IMG/VR virus record: IMGVR_UViG_3300044825_000899
Span: 1 to 20,304 of that record
From: a virus
Length of the DNA: 20,304 bases
Reading direction: 5' to 3' (one strand)
A program made the position numbers and the translations under genes. Below, one piece after another: positions 4,231-20,304 of this stretch; positions within the stretch are counted from its first letter, which is position 1; every line of letters starts with the position of its first letter. The notes below the pieces were generated by a model. That model was not told the DNA's origin. It made no database searches and saw only the letters and a list, made by a program, of their open reading frames with translations.

Positions 4231-4656
4231 TTACCCCCCCAATGCTTTCAAATATCTGTCTGTTATGAATCGGCATTCATTTTTAAACATCCGATATATC
4301 TGCAAATCCGCATCAAGGGTAGCTTGTTGTAGTGTTGATTCTAAAACAAAGCCGCACCTTTGTGCAAGATTTATGCTTTTTTGATTGTTTGATTTTATAA
4401 ACGCCGTCAATCTGTTTACGTTAGCTTTGTTAAACGGGTAGTCAAACATCATGGCTAAAAATTTACGGTTCATCGGCACATCGCAAGCCAAACTAAGGAT
4501 TAAATGCGCTTCGTTGTAGCCCCCAAATACTGCGCCAGCAACCAATTCACCGTCGTGATTTAGCTGTCCAATGGCTCTAAGGTTTCGTGACAGTATCTCG
4601 TCGCCAATCCTATTTTCCACCCACGGAATAATGACATCATTATCAAACGTGTACAT
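4231..4656 (-). CDS. GNAT-type N-acetyltransferase-like protein
   Basis: A 141-residue protein resembling the Gcn5-related N-acetyltransferase fold. Beta strands around residues 26-58 (RAIGQLNHDGELVAGAVFGG) are followed by a helix and then the typical motif at residues 80-103: VNRLTAFIKSNNQKSINLAQ and then RCGF. The N..SI..A...GF pattern is the usual acetyl-CoA-side helix signature. The classical Q/RxxGxG/A loop is not clearly present, so activity is uncertain. The ATG at 4656 overlaps the TGA of the upstream nozzle-like gene by one base (TGATG), so translation is coupled. Similar GNAT-like proteins occur in late operons of other short-tailed phages. It may modify a virion protein or a host target early in infection, or act only as a structural relic. 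Local G+C is low (22/60 at 4261-4320 and 20/60 at 4381-4440 by my count). Confidence 0.7.
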   Translation of the reverse strand: MYTFDNDVIIPWVENRIGDEILSRNLRAIGQLNHDGELVAGAVFGGYNEAHLILSLACDVPMNRKFLAMMFDYPFNKANVNRLTAFIKSNNQKSINLAQRCGFVLESTLQQATLDADLQIYRMFKNECRFITDRYLKALGG

Positions 4657-11705: not shown

Positions 11706-12062
11706 CTAATATGCCAATAAAAGCATTTCAATTGCTTCTTCTTCTTCCTCATCCTCAAGGCGTTTTAGCTCCATCAAGATAAGGATCTGTTCGGCCACAA
11801 ACCTTTGCGCCTCTAAATTTGTTTTAAGCCCCGTGTAATCAATATTGAATTGTTTTTTTGCCTGCGGCACTGCCGCTAAGGCTTTTTCTGGGGTGCGTTC
11901 TACCGCTTCAATTACTTGTTCTATGGACGGTAATTTTTTTTCGTGCTGTTTTTTCCACCACCGATAATAATAATCGCCGCCATCGTGGGTATCCGCGCCG
12001 GTTATTAAACCCCAAGCATTTCCCCACGCTTTGCCCCATGATTTACCCCATGCGCTGGCCAT
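11706..12062 (-). CDS. WG-repeat small protein, unknown function
   Basis: A 118-residue protein whose N-terminus (residues 3-18) is a tandem repeat of a Trp-Gly unit: SAWGKSWGKAWGNAWG. The repeat is followed by an aromatic cluster YYYRWWKKQ, a helical middle, and an acidic end EDEEEEEAIEMLLLAY. I recognise such Trp-Gly starts on small proteins next to virion genes in some phages, but the function is unknown. Its ATG at 12062 is 3 bases after the previous stop, with only a weak ribosome site. It may bind another virion protein through the aromatic stretch. Confidence 0.5.
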   Translation of the reverse strand: MASAWGKSWGKAWGNAWGLITGADTHDGGDYYYRWWKKQHEKKLPSIEQVIEAVERTPEKALAAVPQAKKQFNIDYTGLKTNLEAQRFVAEQILILMELKRLEDEEEEEAIEMLLLAY

Positions 12063-12065
12063 GTT

Positions 12066-12491
12066 TTATACCGGATTCCACGGGTCAATATCTTGGCCTG
12101 TGCCTTTGACTTGAACATCATTAACATATTGGATGTTTGCATCAACCATGCCAGATAGAGTGAATGTGAGGCCGTCTGTCTTGGCTTTGATTGCCGTCGA
12201 GGTTGCTTGCAATGCCAAATCAGCCGATTTAATCTCTGCCGTTCCGTCCCATTGTAATGTTCCGCCGCCCACCACGTTGGCCCCGTCTTTTACGACAATT
12301 GCATACACCCCAGCAACTGGTGCTGGTGATGTGGGTACGCTGCCCCAGTAAACGCCTGCACTGGTGGTATCGCTCATGGCTATTGGGCCGATACCTGATG
12401 CACCTGCGCCAGCCGCTCCTGACTGGTAAAGGTACGCTTGTAATGTCGTTAATCCGTTTTGGGTGTACGGAAATTGAAGCTCGTTCGCCAT
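12066..12491 (-). CDS. Small virion-associated protein, unknown function
   Basis: A 141-residue, mostly beta protein rich in Ala/Gly/Thr/Val. A conserved-looking end reads SGMVDANIQYVNDVQVKGTG and then DPWNP. I recognise VDANIxYVNDVxVxGxG-type endings from small structural proteins of phages, often beside fibre or neck genes. TAGGAT lies 8 bases before the ATG at 12491 and inside the end of the fibre gene, so translation is coupled. It may be a fibre-attachment or head-tail accessory protein. This is inference only. Confidence 0.52.
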   Translation of the reverse strand: MANELQFPYTQNGLTTLQAYLYQSGAAGAGASGIGPIAMSDTTSAGVYWGSVPTSPAPVAGVYAIVVKDGANVVGGGTLQWDGTAEIKSADLALQATSTAIKAKTDGLTFTLSGMVDANIQYVNDVQVKGTGQDIDPWNPV

Positions 12492-12493
12492 GG

Positions 12494-15400
12494 TTATATC
12501 CTATATGTGGTAAACGTATTGGCTGCCGTTTTAATCGTCCTAAAACTTGCGCTGGTATTGGCTGCGATTGTTGTGGTGCCTACGTACGTCATACCTGTGT
12601 TTCCCGCCATAGTCACCGTAAACGCAGCCGTGTTAACAATTGACCACGTAAAACTTCTAAATGTTTCTAAACCAGACATAACGCCAGCATCAGCATTTGT
12701 GCCCGTGGGCAAGGTAAACGTGATATTAGCTGTCGGAGTTGTTCGGATAACCAAGGTTAATATCTGTGCAATTGTCAATGTAACGGCGGTGTTTTGGGTT
12801 GTTATTGCACTGCTGCCTTCGTAAACAACGCCACGAGAGGATGTCCCGGAATTGCCATTTATCAAACTTACCGTTGTTCCCGTATAAAAAGTATGAAACG
12901 ATGTCGTCGTGTCTACCGAGTACCACTGGGATGAATTGGTGGCTCCAATTGCAAAATCTACCGCAGCAGAAGCTACCGTGGGACGTGTTACTATTTTTGT
13001 TCCAACCGACCTTGTTGTGACCGCCGGTATCGCAAGGCCAACATCTTGGAATTCAATACGAGAACCAATGTCCCCCGCCATTAAAAGCCCGGGCTGATTG
13101 TTCGCCGCATCCCAAAGATTGGCTGCGGTTATCGGACCTATCGCACCAACACTGTAAAAAGTCGCATTCATGTAATTAGTCAAAATATTGTCTAAATACA
13201 AAATGAAAGCATTACCAATTGGGATTGTTGATCCAACGTTTGTTCCCGAGTGTGTCCAAGAACCACCAGAAATATTTATTACATAAGCCCCGTTTCCAGA
13301 TGCAACGCCTGTAAATACACTCACATAAATATCATATTCAGTATTACTTACTTGAATAACTCTTGCATTCGCTGGGTCTAACGCCCCACCCTCACCTAAA
13401 GTAAAACCTCGCCCCCAACCATAAAAATTTCCCGTGCTCCCAATAGTAAAATCGACGCCATCACTTGTATTAAAAAAGAACATATATTCAGATGTTCTTC
13501 TCGTAGCTGTAAGTAATGAATTGTTATACAGAATTTTTAAACTTAACTTTTCTCGTGTCTGCGTTGTCGTCCATCTACCGACATACATATACGTATCGGT
13601 TCCGCCAGTGTTTGCGGGTAAAGTATTAGTGTAGAAGTCAGCATTACCGCCCGTTAAAGTAGTTGCAGTGGAAGCGTTGCCCGTCAAGTTTGCTGTTATT
13701 GTGCCTGCGCTAAAATTGCCACTGCTATCACGGGAAACAATTGCCAAGGCTGTGTTTGCGTTTGTTGCTGTGGTTGCCGAATTGCTAACTTTGCCCGCCG
13801 TTGTTATGGTGTTAAGCTTTGTGTCCGCAATACTTCCGGCCAGCATCGTATTTGTTACGGTGCCAGTGTCCCCCGTTGATACCAAAGTACCGTTAACGTT
13901 GGGTAGCGTGTAGGTTCTGGTTGTCGCCGTAGTGATTCCCGCTGCATCAAACTTGGCTTTTTTGGTGTTGTCCGTATCGTCCTGTATTGTGAAACTGGCA
14001 TCAGTTACGGTTTTATTTGTCAGGGTTTCAGTGCCAGTCAATGTCGCAGCATCCGTAATCCCGTAGCCGCTTACCGTCGTGGGTTTGCTGGTAATGCTTG
14101 AAAACGCTGGTGTAATGGTAACGTTCGTTGCTGTTGTAATTCGCCCTTTAGCATCCACAATAACCTGCGCCGATTGTGTAGCGTTTCCATATGTTCCGGC
14201 TGTCGCTCCCGAGTTGGCCAAGGTCAAAGTTATAGCCGTCGCTCCACTTCCCGTAGCATCCCCTGTTACTGTGATATTTTGATTGCCCGTCAAATAGTTA
14301 GGTGTCCAGTTCACCCACTGTGTGCCATTGTTTCGGAGTAGTTGACCGCTGCTAGGCGTTGCAACCGTGACGTCACTCAGTTGGGTTAATGAGTAATCTC
14401 CCTCAGTCGCCGTAATTGGCCCCGTGCGCCCAAACACTGATGTGACTGCGTCGGTGTTCAAATCGCTCCAGCTGGCTGTGATGTTTGTGCCGTCTTGCTT
14501 GTTTAATGTTAGGGTTTTGGTTGTTGTTCCGGTTACCGCCGCAGATGTCAACGATCTGTCATAGGCTGTGTTCCAGTTTGCCGAATTGTCGGTTAAATAA
14601 GTAATGGTTCCATTAGTTGACTTGACAAGGCCAAGACCGGACAATACCGCCTGTTTGTTGTTGAATGTTGCCCAATCCGTTGCGCTAAGTGCGCCCGTAA
14701 TGGTGCTGCTAGCTGTGGGCAATCCAATTGTCGTTGCGCTGCCGCCATTAAACGAAGTGCCCGTCAATGGTCCAGATATCGTTAATACGTTCGTTGTGTT
14801 AGCTGTTACCGTGATATTTCCCGTACCATCAAAAGTAACCCCGTTAATCGTTCTGGGTGTTTGCAATGCCGTAGCCGTCGCTGCATTGCCCGTCGTGCTT
14901 TGGTTGAGTGTGGGTACATCCGCCGCTTGAATGGCCGACATTGTTACGTTTGTTCCAGTTCCTCTTAAATATTGCCCTGCGGTTGTTGCGCCTGCAAGTG
15001 CGTTAATTGCTGCCTGTTGCGTTGATGCGCCTGTGCCGCCGTCAGCAATTGCCAAATCAATGATGCCTGCAATTGAGCCACCTGTAATCGCTACGGTGCT
15101 AGCGTTTTGCGTTGCAATTGTTCCTAAACCAAGCGATGTCCTTGCCTGCTCTCGCGTTTCTTGTATCCATGCTGTGCCATTACCAACAATAAAATTATCT
15201 GCTAATGGTGACAATGCTGCAATTGCTGTAAGGTCTGAATCTAATGGTTGTGCATCAATTATTCCGTATCCAGATAATGTTGTAGGTTTGTCCGTTACGT
15301 TTGAAAAAGCAGGAGTAATTGTGACATTGGTAGAAGATGTTAGCCGTCCCTGTGCGTCAACTGTGTATTGTGGTGCTTGAGTAGCATTACCGTATACACC

Positions 15401-15565
15401 TGCGGCTACCGTAGTGTTGGGCAAATTGGATATTGGTAATTTTTCATTACCGTCCAGGGGCGCATAGCCGTTGGCAGCTCCTTTATTGGCTGCGTTTTCT
15501 GGAGTAAAACCCAATGCCGCTATTATGTCGGCATATAAAATTTTTAATTTGGTTATAAAAGCCAT
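12494..15565 (-). CDS. Tail fibre protein (receptor-binding candidate)
   Basis: A 1023-residue, Thr/Asn/Gly-rich protein with about no Cys, starting at the ATG at 15565, 2 bases after the upstream stop (a TTG at 15571 in the same frame overlaps that stop and is less likely). Residues 20-105 contain GFTPENAANKGAANGYAPLD and a first beta-helix-like unit. Residues 459-506 carry a second copy of that unit (YGNATQ, DAKGR, NVTITPAFS, KPTT, GYG). Further segments such as ATATALQTPRTINGV are common in fibres. Residues about 635-810 are aromatic and unlike the rest (YMFFFNTSDGVDFTIG) and AT-rich in DNA. The end (about 940-1023) is a beta-strand unit with TAAFTVTMAGNTG and ASFRTIKTAANTF, typical of fibre C-termini. 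Placement between a membrane protein gene and head genes is unusual. The receptor role is inferred. Confidence 0.8.
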   Translation of the reverse strand: MAFITKLKILYADIIAALGFTPENAANKGAANGYAPLDGNEKLPISNLPNTTVAAGVYGNATQAPQYTVDAQGRLTSSTNVTITPAFSNVTDKPTTLSGYGIIDAQPLDSDLTAIAALSPLADNFIVGNGTAWIQETREQARTSLGLGTIATQNASTVAITGGSIAGIIDLAIADGGTGASTQQAAINALAGATTAGQYLRGTGTNVTMSAIQAADVPTLNQSTTGNAATATALQTPRTINGVTFDGTGNITVTANTTNVLTISGPLTGTSFNGGSATTIGLPTASSTITGALSATDWATFNNKQAVLSGLGLVKSTNGTITYLTDNSANWNTAYDRSLTSAAVTGTTTKTLTLNKQDGTNITASWSDLNTDAVTSVFGRTGPITATEGDYSLTQLSDVTVATPSSGQLLRNNGTQWVNWTPNYLTGNQNITVTGDATGSGATAITLTLANSGATAGTYGNATQSAQVIVDAKGRITTATNVTITPAFSSITSKPTTVSGYGITDAATLTGTETLTNKTVTDASFTIQDDTDNTKKAKFDAAGITTATTRTYTLPNVNGTLVSTGDTGTVTNTMLAGSIADTKLNTITTAGKVSNSATTATNANTALAIVSRDSSGNFSAGTITANLTGNASTATTLTGGNADFYTNTLPANTGGTDTYMYVGRWTTTQTREKLSLKILYNNSLLTATRRTSEYMFFFNTSDGVDFTIGSTGNFYGWGRGFTLGEGGALDPANARVIQVSNTEYDIYVSVFTGVASGNGAYVINISGGSWTHSGTNVGSTIPIGNAFILYLDNILTNYMNATFYSVGAIGPITAANLWDAANNQPGLLMAGDIGSRIEFQDVGLAIPAVTTRSVGTKIVTRPTVASAAVDFAIGATNSSQWYSVDTTTSFHTFYTGTTVSLINGNSGTSSRGVVYEGSSAITTQNTAVTLTIAQILTLVIRTTPTANITFTLPTGTNADAGVMSGLETFRSFTWSIVNTAAFTVTMAGNTGMTYVGTTTIAANTSASFRTIKTAANTFTTYRI
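14048..14191 (-). repeat. Fibre internal repeat, copy 2
   Basis: This encodes fibre residues 459-506, a second copy of the unit at residues 58-105. Both begin YGNATQ and share DA(Q/K)GR, NVTITPAFS, KPTT and SGYGI. The DNA copies have diverged more than the proteins, so the duplication is old or the unit came in separately. Confidence 0.7.
15251..15394 (-). repeat. Fibre internal repeat, copy 1
   Basis: This encodes fibre residues 58-105 near the N-terminus and pairs with the copy at 14048-14191. It probably forms one structural unit of the fibre shaft. Confidence 0.7.
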
Positions 15566-15567
15566 GA

Positions 15568-15798
15568 TCAACCCAATTTTATAAAGTACGCAACCAATCC
15601 ACTAAATGCACCAATGGCCGCACTGCCGGCACTTATCATCATCAATGCGCCTTTCATTTTGCCTCGGCCTTCCGCTAAAAGGATTTTTATTTCATGTACT
15701 TCGGCGGCTACTGCTTCCACTTTTTTATCCATGTGGGTGATGCGGTTTTCCATGTGTATAAATCGTTCTTCATGTCTTGCAAGGTCTGCGTTAGTCAT
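15568..15798 (-). CDS. Small coiled-coil membrane protein (XhlA/holin-like)
   Basis: A 76-residue protein. Residues 5-45 form a charged helix (ERFIHMENRITHMDKKVEAV) with coiled-coil spacing. Residues about 52-73 form one hydrophobic span (GALMMISAGSAAIGAFSGLV). This coiled-coil-then-single-TM layout matches hemolysin XhlA-type proteins and some holins. The ATG at 15798 overlaps the portal TGA (ATGA), so it is coupled to the portal. Lysis genes are not usually between portal and fibre, so it may instead be a virion or membrane accessory. The fold assignment is moderate and the role is open. Confidence 0.55.
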   Translation of the reverse strand: MTNADLARHEERFIHMENRITHMDKKVEAVAAEVHEIKILLAEGRGKMKGALMMISAGSAAIGAFSGLVAYFIKLG

Positions 15799-18080
15799 TC
15801 ACTCACCTCAATAGCTGCAATGGCTTTGCCGTTTTGATCTCGCTGTATTACCCGTTTTTTAGGCTTTTTCATTTCTTCCGCCGTGCCTAGTAATACCTGC
15901 GCTACTGTCCCTAATTGGTTAACTGCCTCGGCTATGCCTGCGCCGTGCGCTGCGCCTGCTTGGCTGATGATGTCTGCAATTCCGTTGAGTTTGTCTTGTG
16001 CGTCAATTTGAAGAACTGCGGCTGGTTTCTGCTGCGCCTGAGTTTGCATTTCGGCTATCTGTAATCGGGTTTGCGCGTCTAGTTGGGCTTTATATGCCTG
16101 CCTCTCTGTCTCGGCTTGTTGTTTCATTAGCTCGATCTCTTTGGCGTTCTCGGCTTTAAATTGCTCAATCTGCGCTTGTGCTTGTAGCTTTATCTGCTCT
16201 ACCTGCTGTTGCGCCTGAAGTTTGGCTGATTCCAATTGCTGGCGCGCTTGCTCAATACCCTGCTCATGCTGCAATCGCATTTGATCGGCCTGTTGCTGCG
16301 CTTGTGCCTTCATCATCTCGGGGTTTGGCTGCTCGGGTTTGGGCTGGCGCATCTGCTCTAACGTGTTTTCCAGTGCCGCTTCTAATGTCCGCCCGCTCTT
16401 AAATGTCCTCACTACGAACATCAACGCTTCGCCTACTAATGGCGCTAACTCCGGTGATTGCTGCATAATTGGCAAACTGTTTTGCATTGCCTGGCCAAAC
16501 GCACTCAGAAACTCAATCCGGCTTTGTTTTTCTGCCAATTCATTCATCTCGGCCAAACTCTCCGCCTCGATGTCAATCCGGTAATTTCTGGCCGGCTCAG
16601 CCTTGATTAGCTCCAATGCTGCTTGTGCATATTGCGCATCATCGGTACCTTGAATTCCGCTCATGTTAATGAAAGTCTGTGGGCTGTACAAATCCATCAT
16701 TAACTGCGCTTTGATTCGTAGCGTTTCGGTAACGAACAGAGCCACGCTATGCTGTAATGCCTTCAGCCTCATGGAGGCATACTGGCCTTTTATCTGCTGC
16801 GCCGTGGCGGTCTCGCTTGCCATGCTGGAGCCTCTGATAATATCGCTTAGGCCCGTCACGTCATACACTACCTGCTTGGCTCGCTCTAAGCTGTCATAAC
16901 ATGCCTGCAACGCTTTAACCACGATGTCAAGCGGCAAGAATTGGACTGTGCCTTGTAATCCGCCTTTTTCCGAGAATGCCGCCCATGTGTCCACGGGTAT
17001 CAGAACGTTATCCACGCCCTCGTTCAGCATCCGTTGAACGCCCGCTGCTGATGCGTCATACACGCCCACGATCTTGATCGCATCCACCAACAACCCGATG
17101 CGCTTGGTTAGATCGTCAATCTGGTCGGCTTGGTCTTGATATAACTTGTAATCAGGCACCGGCACTAGCGTATCCGTGGTCATCGTGGCAAACAAAGGCT
17201 TTGGGCACGGCCAGAAACCATCCAGCCCGTAAGGGTCTGGTTTATGGTCAAGTATCTCATCACACCCTTCGGCCACCCAGTAAACGCACTCCTCGGCCTT
17301 GTCCCAGATCTCCCACACTTGCGCTTTCTTCATGCGGTCAATCTCAGATTGATTCATGCCCTGGCTGCGCATCTCGTCCAGCCCGATTGGTTCATGCGTC
17401 ATGGGTATGCGCTTTGTAATGTCCTCGCCAAAGCGTTTTTCTAGCTCTGATCTAGCCATGTATTCACGCTTTGCCACCCAGCTCACTTCATCCCAGCATC
17501 GTGCGGGGGAGCATCTGAAATCCTCCCAATACACGTAATCTACTGGAGTGGTTTCCGTCTGCATCTCGCCAGCTTGCGGAGTTATGCCTGTGGGTAAATT
17601 GTGGATAACTTCTTGATGCTCGTATTGGTCATCGTTTGCGCCAACGGTCTCTATCTCCTTGGCTTCAAACCGCACCCACACAGTACCACGGCCGCACAAT
17701 AAGCGGTCTAATGTTGCAGCCCTTGTCGCATTTTCAAAATCGCCGTAATTGTCGATCTCGTATTGGAGCGCCCGTTCCATAATCGTCGCTGCTGTCCGTG
17801 CCACTGGGTCTTTATCTTTCCAACGCCTCTCCACTATTGCCCGTGGCGTTTTCGCATACAACGCAGGGTAAAGCGTTTGTATATTGCTCCACAAAATGTT
17901 ATATCGCTTGTTACCGTCGTAGCTGCTGCTGCGGTCGTCCCTGTATCGCTTGACGATCTTCTTGCTAGCCTTCACCCATTTATCATCTGCCTTTTTGGCG
18001 TTAGACAATTCCTGATGCAGCTGCTGCGCCGTTTTTCTCGGCTTCATATCCTGTTCGAAATACGGGGGGTTTGTTTCCAT
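15795..18080 (-). CDS. Portal protein (large, P22/T7-type)
   Basis: A 761-residue portal, the ring at one capsid vertex through which DNA enters and leaves. The N-terminus has ADDKWVKASKKIVKRYRDDR and YNILWSNIQTLYPALYAKTP, typical of large portals of short-tailed phages. The middle has TGLSDIIRGSSMASETATAQ, a strongly conserved portal helix region. About residues 589-688 (DNA 16017-16316) are a very Gln/Glu-rich coiled coil with repeated KLQAQQQVEQ-like units, which would form a long C-terminal barrel like that of P22. The start is uncertain: the ATG at 18080 overlaps terL by 37 bases, while an in-frame ATG at 18047 (MKPRKTAQQ) overlaps it by 4 (ATGA), the style used elsewhere here, and could be the true start. 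The gene sits directly after terL, as usual. Confidence 0.9.
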   Translation of the reverse strand: METNPPYFEQDMKPRKTAQQLHQELSNAKKADDKWVKASKKIVKRYRDDRSSSYDGNKRYNILWSNIQTLYPALYAKTPRAIVERRWKDKDPVARTAATIMERALQYEIDNYGDFENATRAATLDRLLCGRGTVWVRFEAKEIETVGANDDQYEHQEVIHNLPTGITPQAGEMQTETTPVDYVYWEDFRCSPARCWDEVSWVAKREYMARSELEKRFGEDITKRIPMTHEPIGLDEMRSQGMNQSEIDRMKKAQVWEIWDKAEECVYWVAEGCDEILDHKPDPYGLDGFWPCPKPLFATMTTDTLVPVPDYKLYQDQADQIDDLTKRIGLLVDAIKIVGVYDASAAGVQRMLNEGVDNVLIPVDTWAAFSEKGGLQGTVQFLPLDIVVKALQACYDSLERAKQVVYDVTGLSDIIRGSSMASETATAQQIKGQYASMRLKALQHSVALFVTETLRIKAQLMMDLYSPQTFINMSGIQGTDDAQYAQAALELIKAEPARNYRIDIEAESLAEMNELAEKQSRIEFLSAFGQAMQNSLPIMQQSPELAPLVGEALMFVVRTFKSGRTLEAALENTLEQMRQPKPEQPNPEMMKAQAQQQADQMRLQHEQGIEQARQQLESAKLQAQQQVEQIKLQAQAQIEQFKAENAKEIELMKQQAETERQAYKAQLDAQTRLQIAEMQTQAQQKPAAVLQIDAQDKLNGIADIISQAGAAHGAGIAEAVNQLGTVAQVLLGTAEEMKKPKKRVIQRDQNGKAIAAIEVSE

Positions 18081-19399
18081 AGCTCTTCAAGCGGTGCGGT
18101 AATAATTCGCCCATTTTGCATTGAAACGGGGAAAATATCCATCTTTTTCGCAGATTCTGGGGGTTTTTCCGCTATTTTTTGCGCTCCATAACAAAAACTG
18201 TCAGCCGGATGGCTTGCCCAGTTATGCACCGGCTCTCGGCTCATTACCCCTGTTTCTTCGTTATAACTGAATTCCCACGCGCGTAATCCGTCCAGCCCTG
18301 CCTCGCATAACCCCCGATTAAATGCGCATCGATTGATCACAGTTCTGGCCGCCTCAATCTGGTCTTGCTTCTTGCTCTGGGGGACTATCTCGCAACTGCC
18401 TGCGCCAAACGCACTCAAGAACTTCTCTAGGGTCGTGTGGCGGCTTTGAAATGTCTTAGCTCTAGCGTCGTGCGGTAGCCATATCTTCGCCTTTTTGGCT
18501 CCCAGCTCTCTTATATTGTCTTGAATTCGGGGTATCCATTCCTCTGCATCCAGTCCGGTGTCTGCGTCGTATTTCAGTAAATGAAACCCGCCAGGCACTG
18601 CCTGCCAATACCAGAATGAAGCGGTATCCCTAAAGCCAAGGTCGGCACTCACGCCCATTGTGTCGCCGTGTGCGTCATATTTCACATCGTCGTGAATTCT
18701 GCCCTCTCGCTCGGCACGATTAACCCACTTGGCAAGAATTGCCCCGACTGATGCGCCATAATGCCCGCCCCAAACGTGCTCGGCTCTGTCCTCGTCTGCT
18801 TTGTAATCGGCTTCCATGTCCGCCCGCAGTGGCGTTTGATCAAACCACGGATTGTCGTTCCAGTTCACGTTCACGCAAATCATGTCCGTCCGCTGCTCGC
18901 CCCTGAAGAACTTGTCTACTGCGTCGGTTTTAAATCGTGGATTCCAGGTAAACCAAAGCTCTGAGTTTGGCTTTCGTATTGTCGGGCGCAGTAAATCCAG
19001 ACTGTACTGGCTCAGTGTCTGCGCTTCCTCCACCCATGCGCAATCATAGCCCTCCAGTGATTTAATACTGTCGGCTGTGTGATTTTGCATGCCCTGAAAT
19101 ATTATCAGCCCTGTGCCGCGTCGGCTCCTGATCTGGGTGTCCAACACTTCAAAGTAATCGCCGGCGTTTAATGCGCTGATCTTATCCTCAATCAAGCGTT
19201 TAACAGATTGGCCTAATGACTTCTGAATCTCACGAACGCAGACTGTGCGCCGGTCTGGGTCAATGATGTGGGCTTCAATAACCATCTCGGCCATAAATTG
19301 GGATTTCCCGCCGCCTCGTCCGCCGTAAGCGCCTTTATATCGGCATGGCTCCAGCAATGGCAAAGCCCATGCGGGGGTTTGAATCTGGAGCACGGTCAC
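18044..19399 (-). CDS. terL: Terminase large subunit
   Basis: A 451-residue ATPase/nuclease that packages DNA into the procapsid. Walker A is GGRGGGKS (residues 26-33), Walker B with the catalytic Glu is VEEA (123-126), and the coupling segment is WFTWNP (149-154). Nuclease acidic residues are visible as D253 and D258 in SADLGFRDTASF, as D311 in WLPHDARAKTF, and in HPADSF near the C-terminus. Length and motif order fit the PBSX/Terminase_3-type large subunit. The start is GTG at 19399 overlapping the terS TGA by 4 bases (GTGA), so the two are translationally coupled, and there is little ribosome site. It is followed by the portal. Confidence 0.95.
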   Translation of the reverse strand: MTVLQIQTPAWALPLLEPCRYKGAYGGRGGGKSQFMAEMVIEAHIIDPDRRTVCVREIQKSLGQSVKRLIEDKISALNAGDYFEVLDTQIRSRRGTGLIIFQGMQNHTADSIKSLEGYDCAWVEEAQTLSQYSLDLLRPTIRKPNSELWFTWNPRFKTDAVDKFFRGEQRTDMICVNVNWNDNPWFDQTPLRADMEADYKADEDRAEHVWGGHYGASVGAILAKWVNRAEREGRIHDDVKYDAHGDTMGVSADLGFRDTASFWYWQAVPGGFHLLKYDADTGLDAEEWIPRIQDNIRELGAKKAKIWLPHDARAKTFQSRHTTLEKFLSAFGAGSCEIVPQSKKQDQIEAARTVINRCAFNRGLCEAGLDGLRAWEFSYNEETGVMSREPVHNWASHPADSFCYGAQKIAEKPPESAKKMDIFPVSMQNGRIITAPLEELWKQTPRISNRI

Positions 19400-19806
19400 G
19401 GCTTGACAATCACCCGTTCAATTTTCTGAATTTGCAACCCGCCCGATAGCTCTACTTGGGTAGGCGCATTAAAACCGTGCATTGCGTTAAGCTCTTTAAC
19501 GGCTGCTGTCATGCCTGTGGATTGCTGCCGCTCCTGTGCTACTGCGTAGGCCTCTTTCAGCGCTTGTACGCTTTCTTCGCGCGTCCAAAGCGCCTTTGAT
19601 TCTAGCTTCTGTCTTAGTTCGGCTACCCTCTGGGCGACCTCTGGGCGTGCCATTACTTTGCTGGCGCTGTCCCAAATACTTGCCGGCTTTGTATCTGGTC
19701 TTGGATTGTAAGCTGTTCGGTATGCATCGGCCTGGGTCATACCGTCCGCAATGCATTGTGCAAACTTTTCTTTTTTGTCCGTTAGTTTTAATGCTTTTGG
19801 CTCCAT
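19396..19806 (-). CDS. terS: Terminase small subunit
   Basis: A 136-residue DNA-recognition partner of the large subunit. The N-terminal region LTDKKEKFAQCIADGMTQAD and AYRTAYNPRPDT is the helix-turn-helix pattern of Terminase_2-type small subunits. A helical middle (WTREESVQALKEAYAVA) leads to LNAMHGFNAPTQVELSG, which is typical near the end of these proteins. It is the first gene of the leftward late unit. The start is ATG at 19806, with no clear Shine-Dalgarno but an extended -10 element only 6 bases before it, so a leaderless message is possible. Confidence 0.9.
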   Translation of the reverse strand: MEPKALKLTDKKEKFAQCIADGMTQADAYRTAYNPRPDTKPASIWDSASKVMARPEVAQRVAELRQKLESKALWTREESVQALKEAYAVAQERQQSTGMTAAVKELNAMHGFNAPTQVELSGGLQIQKIERVIVKP

Positions 19807-19889
19807 AACTCAATTGTAGCACGTTCACAAATTTATTTAATAGGGTTTTAATCGTGTAAATGTTTGTTTTATATCGTTAAAATTTTGCC
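19807..19889. promoter_or_regulatory. AT-rich divergent intergenic region, likely promoters
   Basis: An 83-base AT-rich gap between terS (leftward) and the HNH-like frame (rightward). On the minus strand TGCTACAAT (19821-19813) is an extended -10-like element, with a weak ATTAAA at the expected -35 distance. On the plus strand TTGTAG (19815-19820) with an AT-rich TTTAAT or TTAATA about 16-17 bases downstream is a weak promoter candidate. No operator palindrome or strong repeat is clear. Confidence 0.4.
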
Positions 19890-20304
19890 ATGAACGTATT
19901 TGACAAAATAGCGGCTCGTACTATTGAAGAGGGTGACTGCCTGCTATGGACTGGAACCATGTGCGCTGGCGGTACCGTCCCCTCTATTTTCAATAAAGGC
20001 AAACTGACTTCAGTTTGTAGGCTTTTGTGGGAAAAGAAAAACGGGTGAATACCGGCTGGCATGCTCATTTATCGCACATGCGGCAATATCCAATGTGTCC
20101 GACCTGCTCATCTTGGCATATGCACGGTGTCAGAACTTGGGCGTTTCAGTGGTTCGCTTGGCAAACAGAAAAAAAGCGAACTTCAAAAGGTTGCCATATC
20201 GTTAACCATGCGCAAACTCTCCAAGCTGACTCAATCTGATGTTGATGACATATTGACATCACCGGATAAGGTGTCAGCCCTTGCTGAACGTTTTAACGTG
20301 TCGG
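19890..20304 (+). pseudogene. HNH homing-endonuclease-like gene split by an in-frame TGA, partial at right edge
   Basis: The frame from the ATG at 19890 reads 52 codons (MNVFDKIAARTIEEGDCLLW and then TSVCRLLWEKKNG) to a TGA at 20046-20048, then stays open in the same frame for 85 codons to the window end. The continuation reads IPAGMLIYRTCGNIQCVRPA followed by HL, and later KLTQSDVDDIL and LAERFNVS. This order (CLLWTG start, (K)NGxIPxGM, C-x4-C-x4-H, then a KLT-type DNA-binding helix region) is that of phage HNH homing endonucleases, so the two parts are one gene. In the core the usual first His is Arg62 (YRTC) and the usual Asn is Arg71 (CVRP), while His74 is kept, so catalysis may be impaired. 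No clear ribosome site precedes the ATG. A downstream restart at the ATG at 20061 is possible. Most likely this is a recent nonsense mutation (for example CGA or GGA to TGA), or read-through. Confidence 0.7.

Follow-up and report, generated by a model that had tools for sequence, protein, structure and literature searches.

A small HNH-fold gene beside the putative terminase small-subunit gene of a phage, probably broken by a recent nonsense mutation

Introduction

The structural zinc of I-PpoI, an endonuclease of the His-Cys box type, is bound by C41, C100, C105 and H110. H98 and N119 are the catalytic residues of this enzyme, and H110 is part of the motif (PMC9587614). Genes of the homing type were described to pass through a homing cycle, in which function is lost when selection lapses (PMC1654191). 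The MH1 domain of Smad proteins was proposed to be a degraded homing endonuclease (Grishin 2001, as cited in PMC4999995), and NFIX was found to retain a zinc ion (PMC12854730).

Here we describe a gene with similarity to these proteins that is interrupted by an in-frame TGA in a viral record with a length of 20,304 bases, referred to as the window (the whole stretch of DNA that was analyzed). Its closest described counterparts are the members of Pfam HNH_3 and the HNH homing endonucleases found in T7-like phages, such as 7.7C of Citrobacter phage CR44b, which have the HNH/His-Me finger region, the C-terminal helix-turn-helix and all four zinc ligands in common with it at about 27–35% identity. 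However, the four active-type phage members compared keep the catalytic His and Asn, whereas the window and its close relatives (the window clade) have Arg and Leu, and the window copy is interrupted. Residues 1–93 of the predicted protein can be aligned with I-PpoI (Z 7.3, 3.6 Å over 91 residues) and with I-HmuI (Z 7.2, 3.0 Å over 81 residues). In contrast to these two enzymes, with which identity is 12–16%, the window family lacks equivalents of H98 and N119, and no intron is evident. The next structural neighbors after the endonucleases are Smad MH1 and nuclear factor I (NFI), with modest Z scores of 4.8–5.2. Both are eukaryotic transcription factors, whereas the phage proteins add a helix-turn-helix, and the likeness described here is one of structure. 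Degenerate genes of the homing cycle resemble the present case in that a homing-type gene has likewise lost its function, but introns and inteins were the elements for which the cycle was proposed, while the gene in the window is free-standing and its intact relatives are already devoid of the catalytic residues. The explanation that we favor, with a probability of about 85%, is a recent, lineage-specific nonsense mutation in a small, dispensable HNH-fold gene beside terS, the decay of which is under way.

Results

The original prediction had placed a start codon at 19890 and a TGA at codon 53, and these coordinates were confirmed (Table 1). The C-x4-C-x4-H motif and an ATG in codon 58 were also located where they had been reported, and the 85 codons following the TGA (codons 54–138) are indeed free of stops as far as the window extends. 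By simple arithmetic (61/64 per codon), a stop-free run of this length would be expected by chance in about 2% of cases. The end of the window falls inside the gene, which continues to codon 163–164 in the relatives.

Table 1. Coordinates of the interrupted gene and adjoining features in the window
Feature	Position	Strand	Basis or comparison
terS (putative terminase small subunit)	19396..19806	-	named by position before terL
Intergenic stretch of 83 bases between the divergent terS and HNH-fold genes	19807..19889	.	near-identical in all close relatives
5' part, 52 codons plus TGA, with the first putative zinc ligand C17 (19938-19940)	19890..20048	+	open frame, combined profile match
In-frame TGA, codon 53	20046..20048	+	Ser (TCA) in L003 and L004; Ala (GCA) in L010, L011 and L094; TGA in L002
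Downstream part in the same frame, truncated by the window end; includes C64, C69 and H74, the His-Me finger core and the beginning of the helix-turn-helix	20049..20303	+	
Candidate restart ATG, no Shine-Dalgarno-like sequence upstream	20061..20063	+	by eye
Codon 62 (CGC, for Arg), in place of the catalytic His (H98) of I-PpoI	20073..20075	+	
Codon 83 (for Leu), in place of the catalytic Asn (N119) of I-PpoI	20136..20138	+	

Profile searches bore out the assumption that both parts constitute a single HNH-fold gene, as the E-values obtained for the joined parts were far better than those for either part alone. The 52-residue part by itself gave a weak match to phrog_1872 (E 0.02), and Pfam HNH_3 was not found with it. 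With the 85-residue part alone, phrog_1872 was matched with E 3.1e-4 and Pfam HNH_3, weakly, with E 0.015. When both parts were searched as one protein, the E-values were 3.8e-13 for phrog_1872 and 6.8e-7 for HNH_3, and both matches spanned codon 53. The comparison with HNH_3, which had been proposed as a check, yielded 29.3 bits for the joined protein, above the curated cut-off of 24.8 bits, and thus places it in the HNH_3/phage HNH endonuclease family; the intact relative L003 scored 31.2 bits.

Structural and packaging genes, among them terL and the genes for the portal and the major head protein, form a block on the minus strand of the window. Amid the structural genes, a GNAT-like acyl-CoA N-acyltransferase is encoded at 4231–4656 (minus strand; phrog_4470, E 1.9e-32). 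The HNH-fold gene lies on the opposite strand, divergent to terS, and the two genes adjoin each other in all close relatives in which the region is present. The HNH-fold gene is the only visibly broken one in the window, as the reading frames of the 19 other complete genes are open. Upstream of its start, no Shine-Dalgarno sequence was recognizable by eye in the window or in the intact relatives, and no match to a sigma-70-type promoter was obtained in 19807–19889; initiation is possibly leaderless or of another type. In three loci (L013, L017 and L025), the HNH-fold gene is absent beside terS and another gene directly precedes terS, which by eye resembles the C-terminus of a DNA methyltransferase. 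A clean empty homing site was not established from these three loci. Megablast of window positions 12000–20304 against phage records returned zero matches, indicating that this phage collection contains no close cultured relative, and the scan of genome contigs with alignment A3 detected no relative and no pointer to the host.

Three very close loci (L002, L003 and L004) were obtained by scanning viral contigs; when the region around codon 53 was used in a pattern scan, the same three contigs and no further ones were recovered. The TGA was found in near-identical L002 only. L003 and L004 have a serine codon at this position and remain intact to codon 163, and the copy with 74% identity in L010, L011 and L094 has an alanine codon and is intact as well. 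No internal stop is present in 26 loci with more distant relatives (28–35% identity, including a few duplicates), and the only internal stop among the 30 tabulated relative loci is that of L002. The residue at codon 53 varies within the family (alignment of 22 relatives). The original prediction had expected a sense residue here in family members and had suggested a comparison of related phages; both the expectation and its suggestion of a recent event agree with a TGA that is confined to the window and L002. The gene thus contains a derived in-frame stop where its relatives have sense codons, as is characteristic of a nonsense pseudogene.

A sequencing or assembly error had been named as another option, in which case the gene would be intact in the real phage. 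Such an error would require a single-base change only, and the TGA is located 256 bases upstream of the window end, contig ends being error-prone. However, the same TGA is present in L002, a contig that differs from the window in sequence and continues past its end. A further in-frame stop of L002, a TAA at codon 144, lies beyond the window end and was seen in no other locus, so that the gene is disabled in L002 regardless of codon 53. The two sequences differ at seven positions in 2,038 bases. Because six of these fall within the initial 51 bases of L002, the evidence for separate strains consists mainly of the difference at 19270 and the extension of L002 past the window end. In consideration of the shared TGA, we regard an error as improbable.

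With L094 as outgroup to polarize the changes, S27G, the stop at S53 and the stop at Q144 (the latter in L002 only) were derived on the branch leading to the window and L002, with zero synonymous changes. The contrast between this branch and the intact copies hints at relaxed selection on the broken branch, but the changes are too few for a firm test (Fisher p 0.09). Between intact copies, dN/dS was 0.10 (L003–L004) and 0.16 (L003–L094). The values before and after codon 53 were similarly low (0.18 and 0.14, respectively), indicating that constraint acts along the full length of intact copies. Judged by these ratios, the intact relatives are maintained by purifying selection.

The selection on the post-TGA frame in relatives, together with its intact state in the window, would also fit read-through or recoding of the TGA with formation of some full-length protein, which the original prediction had considered. 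Programmed read-through implies a stop that is conserved across relatives, whereas this TGA does not occur beyond the window and L002, at a codon that is otherwise variable, and read-through in L002 would meet the second stop downstream. Genome-wide recoding was ruled out, since TGA terminates 8 of the 19 other complete genes and thus serves as an ordinary stop in this phage. A suppressor tRNA was ruled out because a tRNA was found neither in the window nor in those related phage loci that were examined. The lack of a stable structure after the TGA likewise ruled out a selenocysteine element or a stimulatory hairpin: the RNA following this codon folds worse than shuffled sequences (z +1.4). 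No match was obtained in Rfam. Taken together, read-through is very improbable.

In the alignment of 22 relatives, C17, W20, P31, C64, C69 and H74 are invariant. C17, C64, C69 and H74 are putative zinc ligands and are also present in 8 of 8 sequences of alignment A2. Positions 62 and 83 (two residues before C64 and nine after H74) form with H74 a spacing that fits H98, H110 and N119 of the I-PpoI motif. A His at position 62 was found in a single family member of 22 and an Asn at position 83 in none; the window clade has Arg62 and Leu83. In contrast, all four active-type members compared, which come from T7-like or other isolated phages, have His and Asn at these positions. A fifth member from an isolated phage (MW202462) has lost both, and its tail groups with the present family. 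In the profile match to I-HmuI, which is weak (E 0.027), I-HmuI has its own His and Asn in the same columns. Thus, the catalytic His and the metal-binding Asn of an active HNH/His-Me finger are missing, and the zinc ligands are retained. The Pfam model for the zinc-binding loop of homing endonucleases matched 3 of the 22 members, and helix-turn-helix models matched several. The designation as HNH homing endonuclease in the original prediction consequently fits the fold family but goes too far on function, given the residues in codons 62 and 83 of the window and likewise in its intact relatives. Retention of the predicted fold and the zinc ligands together with the loss of the catalytic His and Asn suggests a DNA-binding protein derived from a homing endonuclease, so that the gene probably encoded a degraded endonuclease acting in DNA binding rather than an active homing endonuclease.

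L002 contains a second HNH-fold ORF of the same phage (L002:3578-3931, minus strand; phrog_1872, E 3.3e-16). By eye, the catalytic His of its motif (VILCGN) and the matching Asn are missing, and the ORF is without a helix-turn-helix tail.

A first structural model built from three sequences was poor (pLDDT 45) and was set aside. AlphaFold2 with the 22-sequence alignment gave a pLDDT of 81 overall and of about 90 over residues 1–80. In this predicted model, two strands and a helix occupy the expected His-Me finger site, position 62 is at the end of a strand, position 83 in the next helix, and the C-terminal helices fit a helix-turn-helix. The first five rows of VIA-align were I-PpoI and I-HmuI (Z 7.0–7.3), above the next rows with the NFI DNA-binding domain (Z 5.2) and Smad4 MH1 (Z 4.9), all Z scores being below 8. 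Foldseek listed I-HmuI first with E 0.024, and no match passed 1e-3. A search of solved structures with the single protein sequence gave no match, and the corresponding profile search found I-HmuI only, with an E-value (0.027) that is too weak by itself. As the structure matches are modest, the assignment of the fold leans on the sequence profile and the structure together; the predicted fold appears to resemble that of I-PpoI and I-HmuI.

The position of C17 in the 5' part and of the other zinc ligands in the downstream part also bears on re-initiation at the ATG of codon 58, by which two polypeptides could be made that act as a split protein, a two-gene expression that had been put forward in the original prediction. 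This ATG is in the same frame, at most 13 codons past the stop, and Met58 is conserved in close relatives. However, this conservation does not extend to the wider family, no Shine-Dalgarno-like sequence precedes the ATG, and the stop itself is not conserved. In L002, the second polypeptide would end at codon 144, inside the helix-turn-helix, and splitting would separate C17 from the remaining zinc ligands. We therefore consider re-initiation highly unlikely.

Discussion

A nonsense mutation at codon 53 would end translation from 19890 after 52 residues. The stop precedes C64, C69, H74, the predicted beta-beta-alpha core and the C-terminal helix-turn-helix, and because all of these lie downstream, no folded HNH-like protein is expected. 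We infer both that the product is absent and that the gene is dispensable. Decay appears to be continuing, as L002 shares the TGA and adds the nonsense codon 144. The stop as such is an ordinary kind of event, the loss of a gene that the phage can do without. The case illustrates that a real nonsense allele can be distinguished from an error or from read-through by means of one near-identical contig and a small number of relatives.

A by-product of the comparison outweighs the stop in importance. Proteins annotated as HNH endonuclease in many phages fall into a subfamily that is without the catalytic His and Asn and has kept the zinc ligands, with the signature T-[IV]-E-E-G-D-C ... C-x4-C-x4-H ... 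helix-turn-helix ... NPFAGL. The label "HNH endonuclease" is doubtful for all members of the subfamily; if these proteins bind DNA and are not nucleases, the annotation is wrong. Tentatively, and with somewhat less than even odds, we propose a widespread phage family that descended from homing endonucleases, lost the nuclease site and kept a zinc-stabilized fold under purifying selection as a DNA-binding regulator, a counterpart of Smad MH1 and NFI; the gene in the window would then be one member that is being lost. If true, bacteriophages would offer a parallel to Smad MH1, in which a homing endonuclease turned into a DNA-binding module. We infer this parallel by analogy with the view of MH1 as a degraded endonuclease. 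With the search terms used, we found no paper describing inactive phage HNH proteins as regulators, which does not prove that none exists.

The sequence of L002 changes from L003-like to L094-like toward the 3' end of the HNH-fold gene (L002:2080-2110), which suggests recombination between related phages. The right end of the window (20304) is 15 bases short of the site in codon 144 at which L002 differs from L003 and L004, and strain variation may have broken the assembly at this point.
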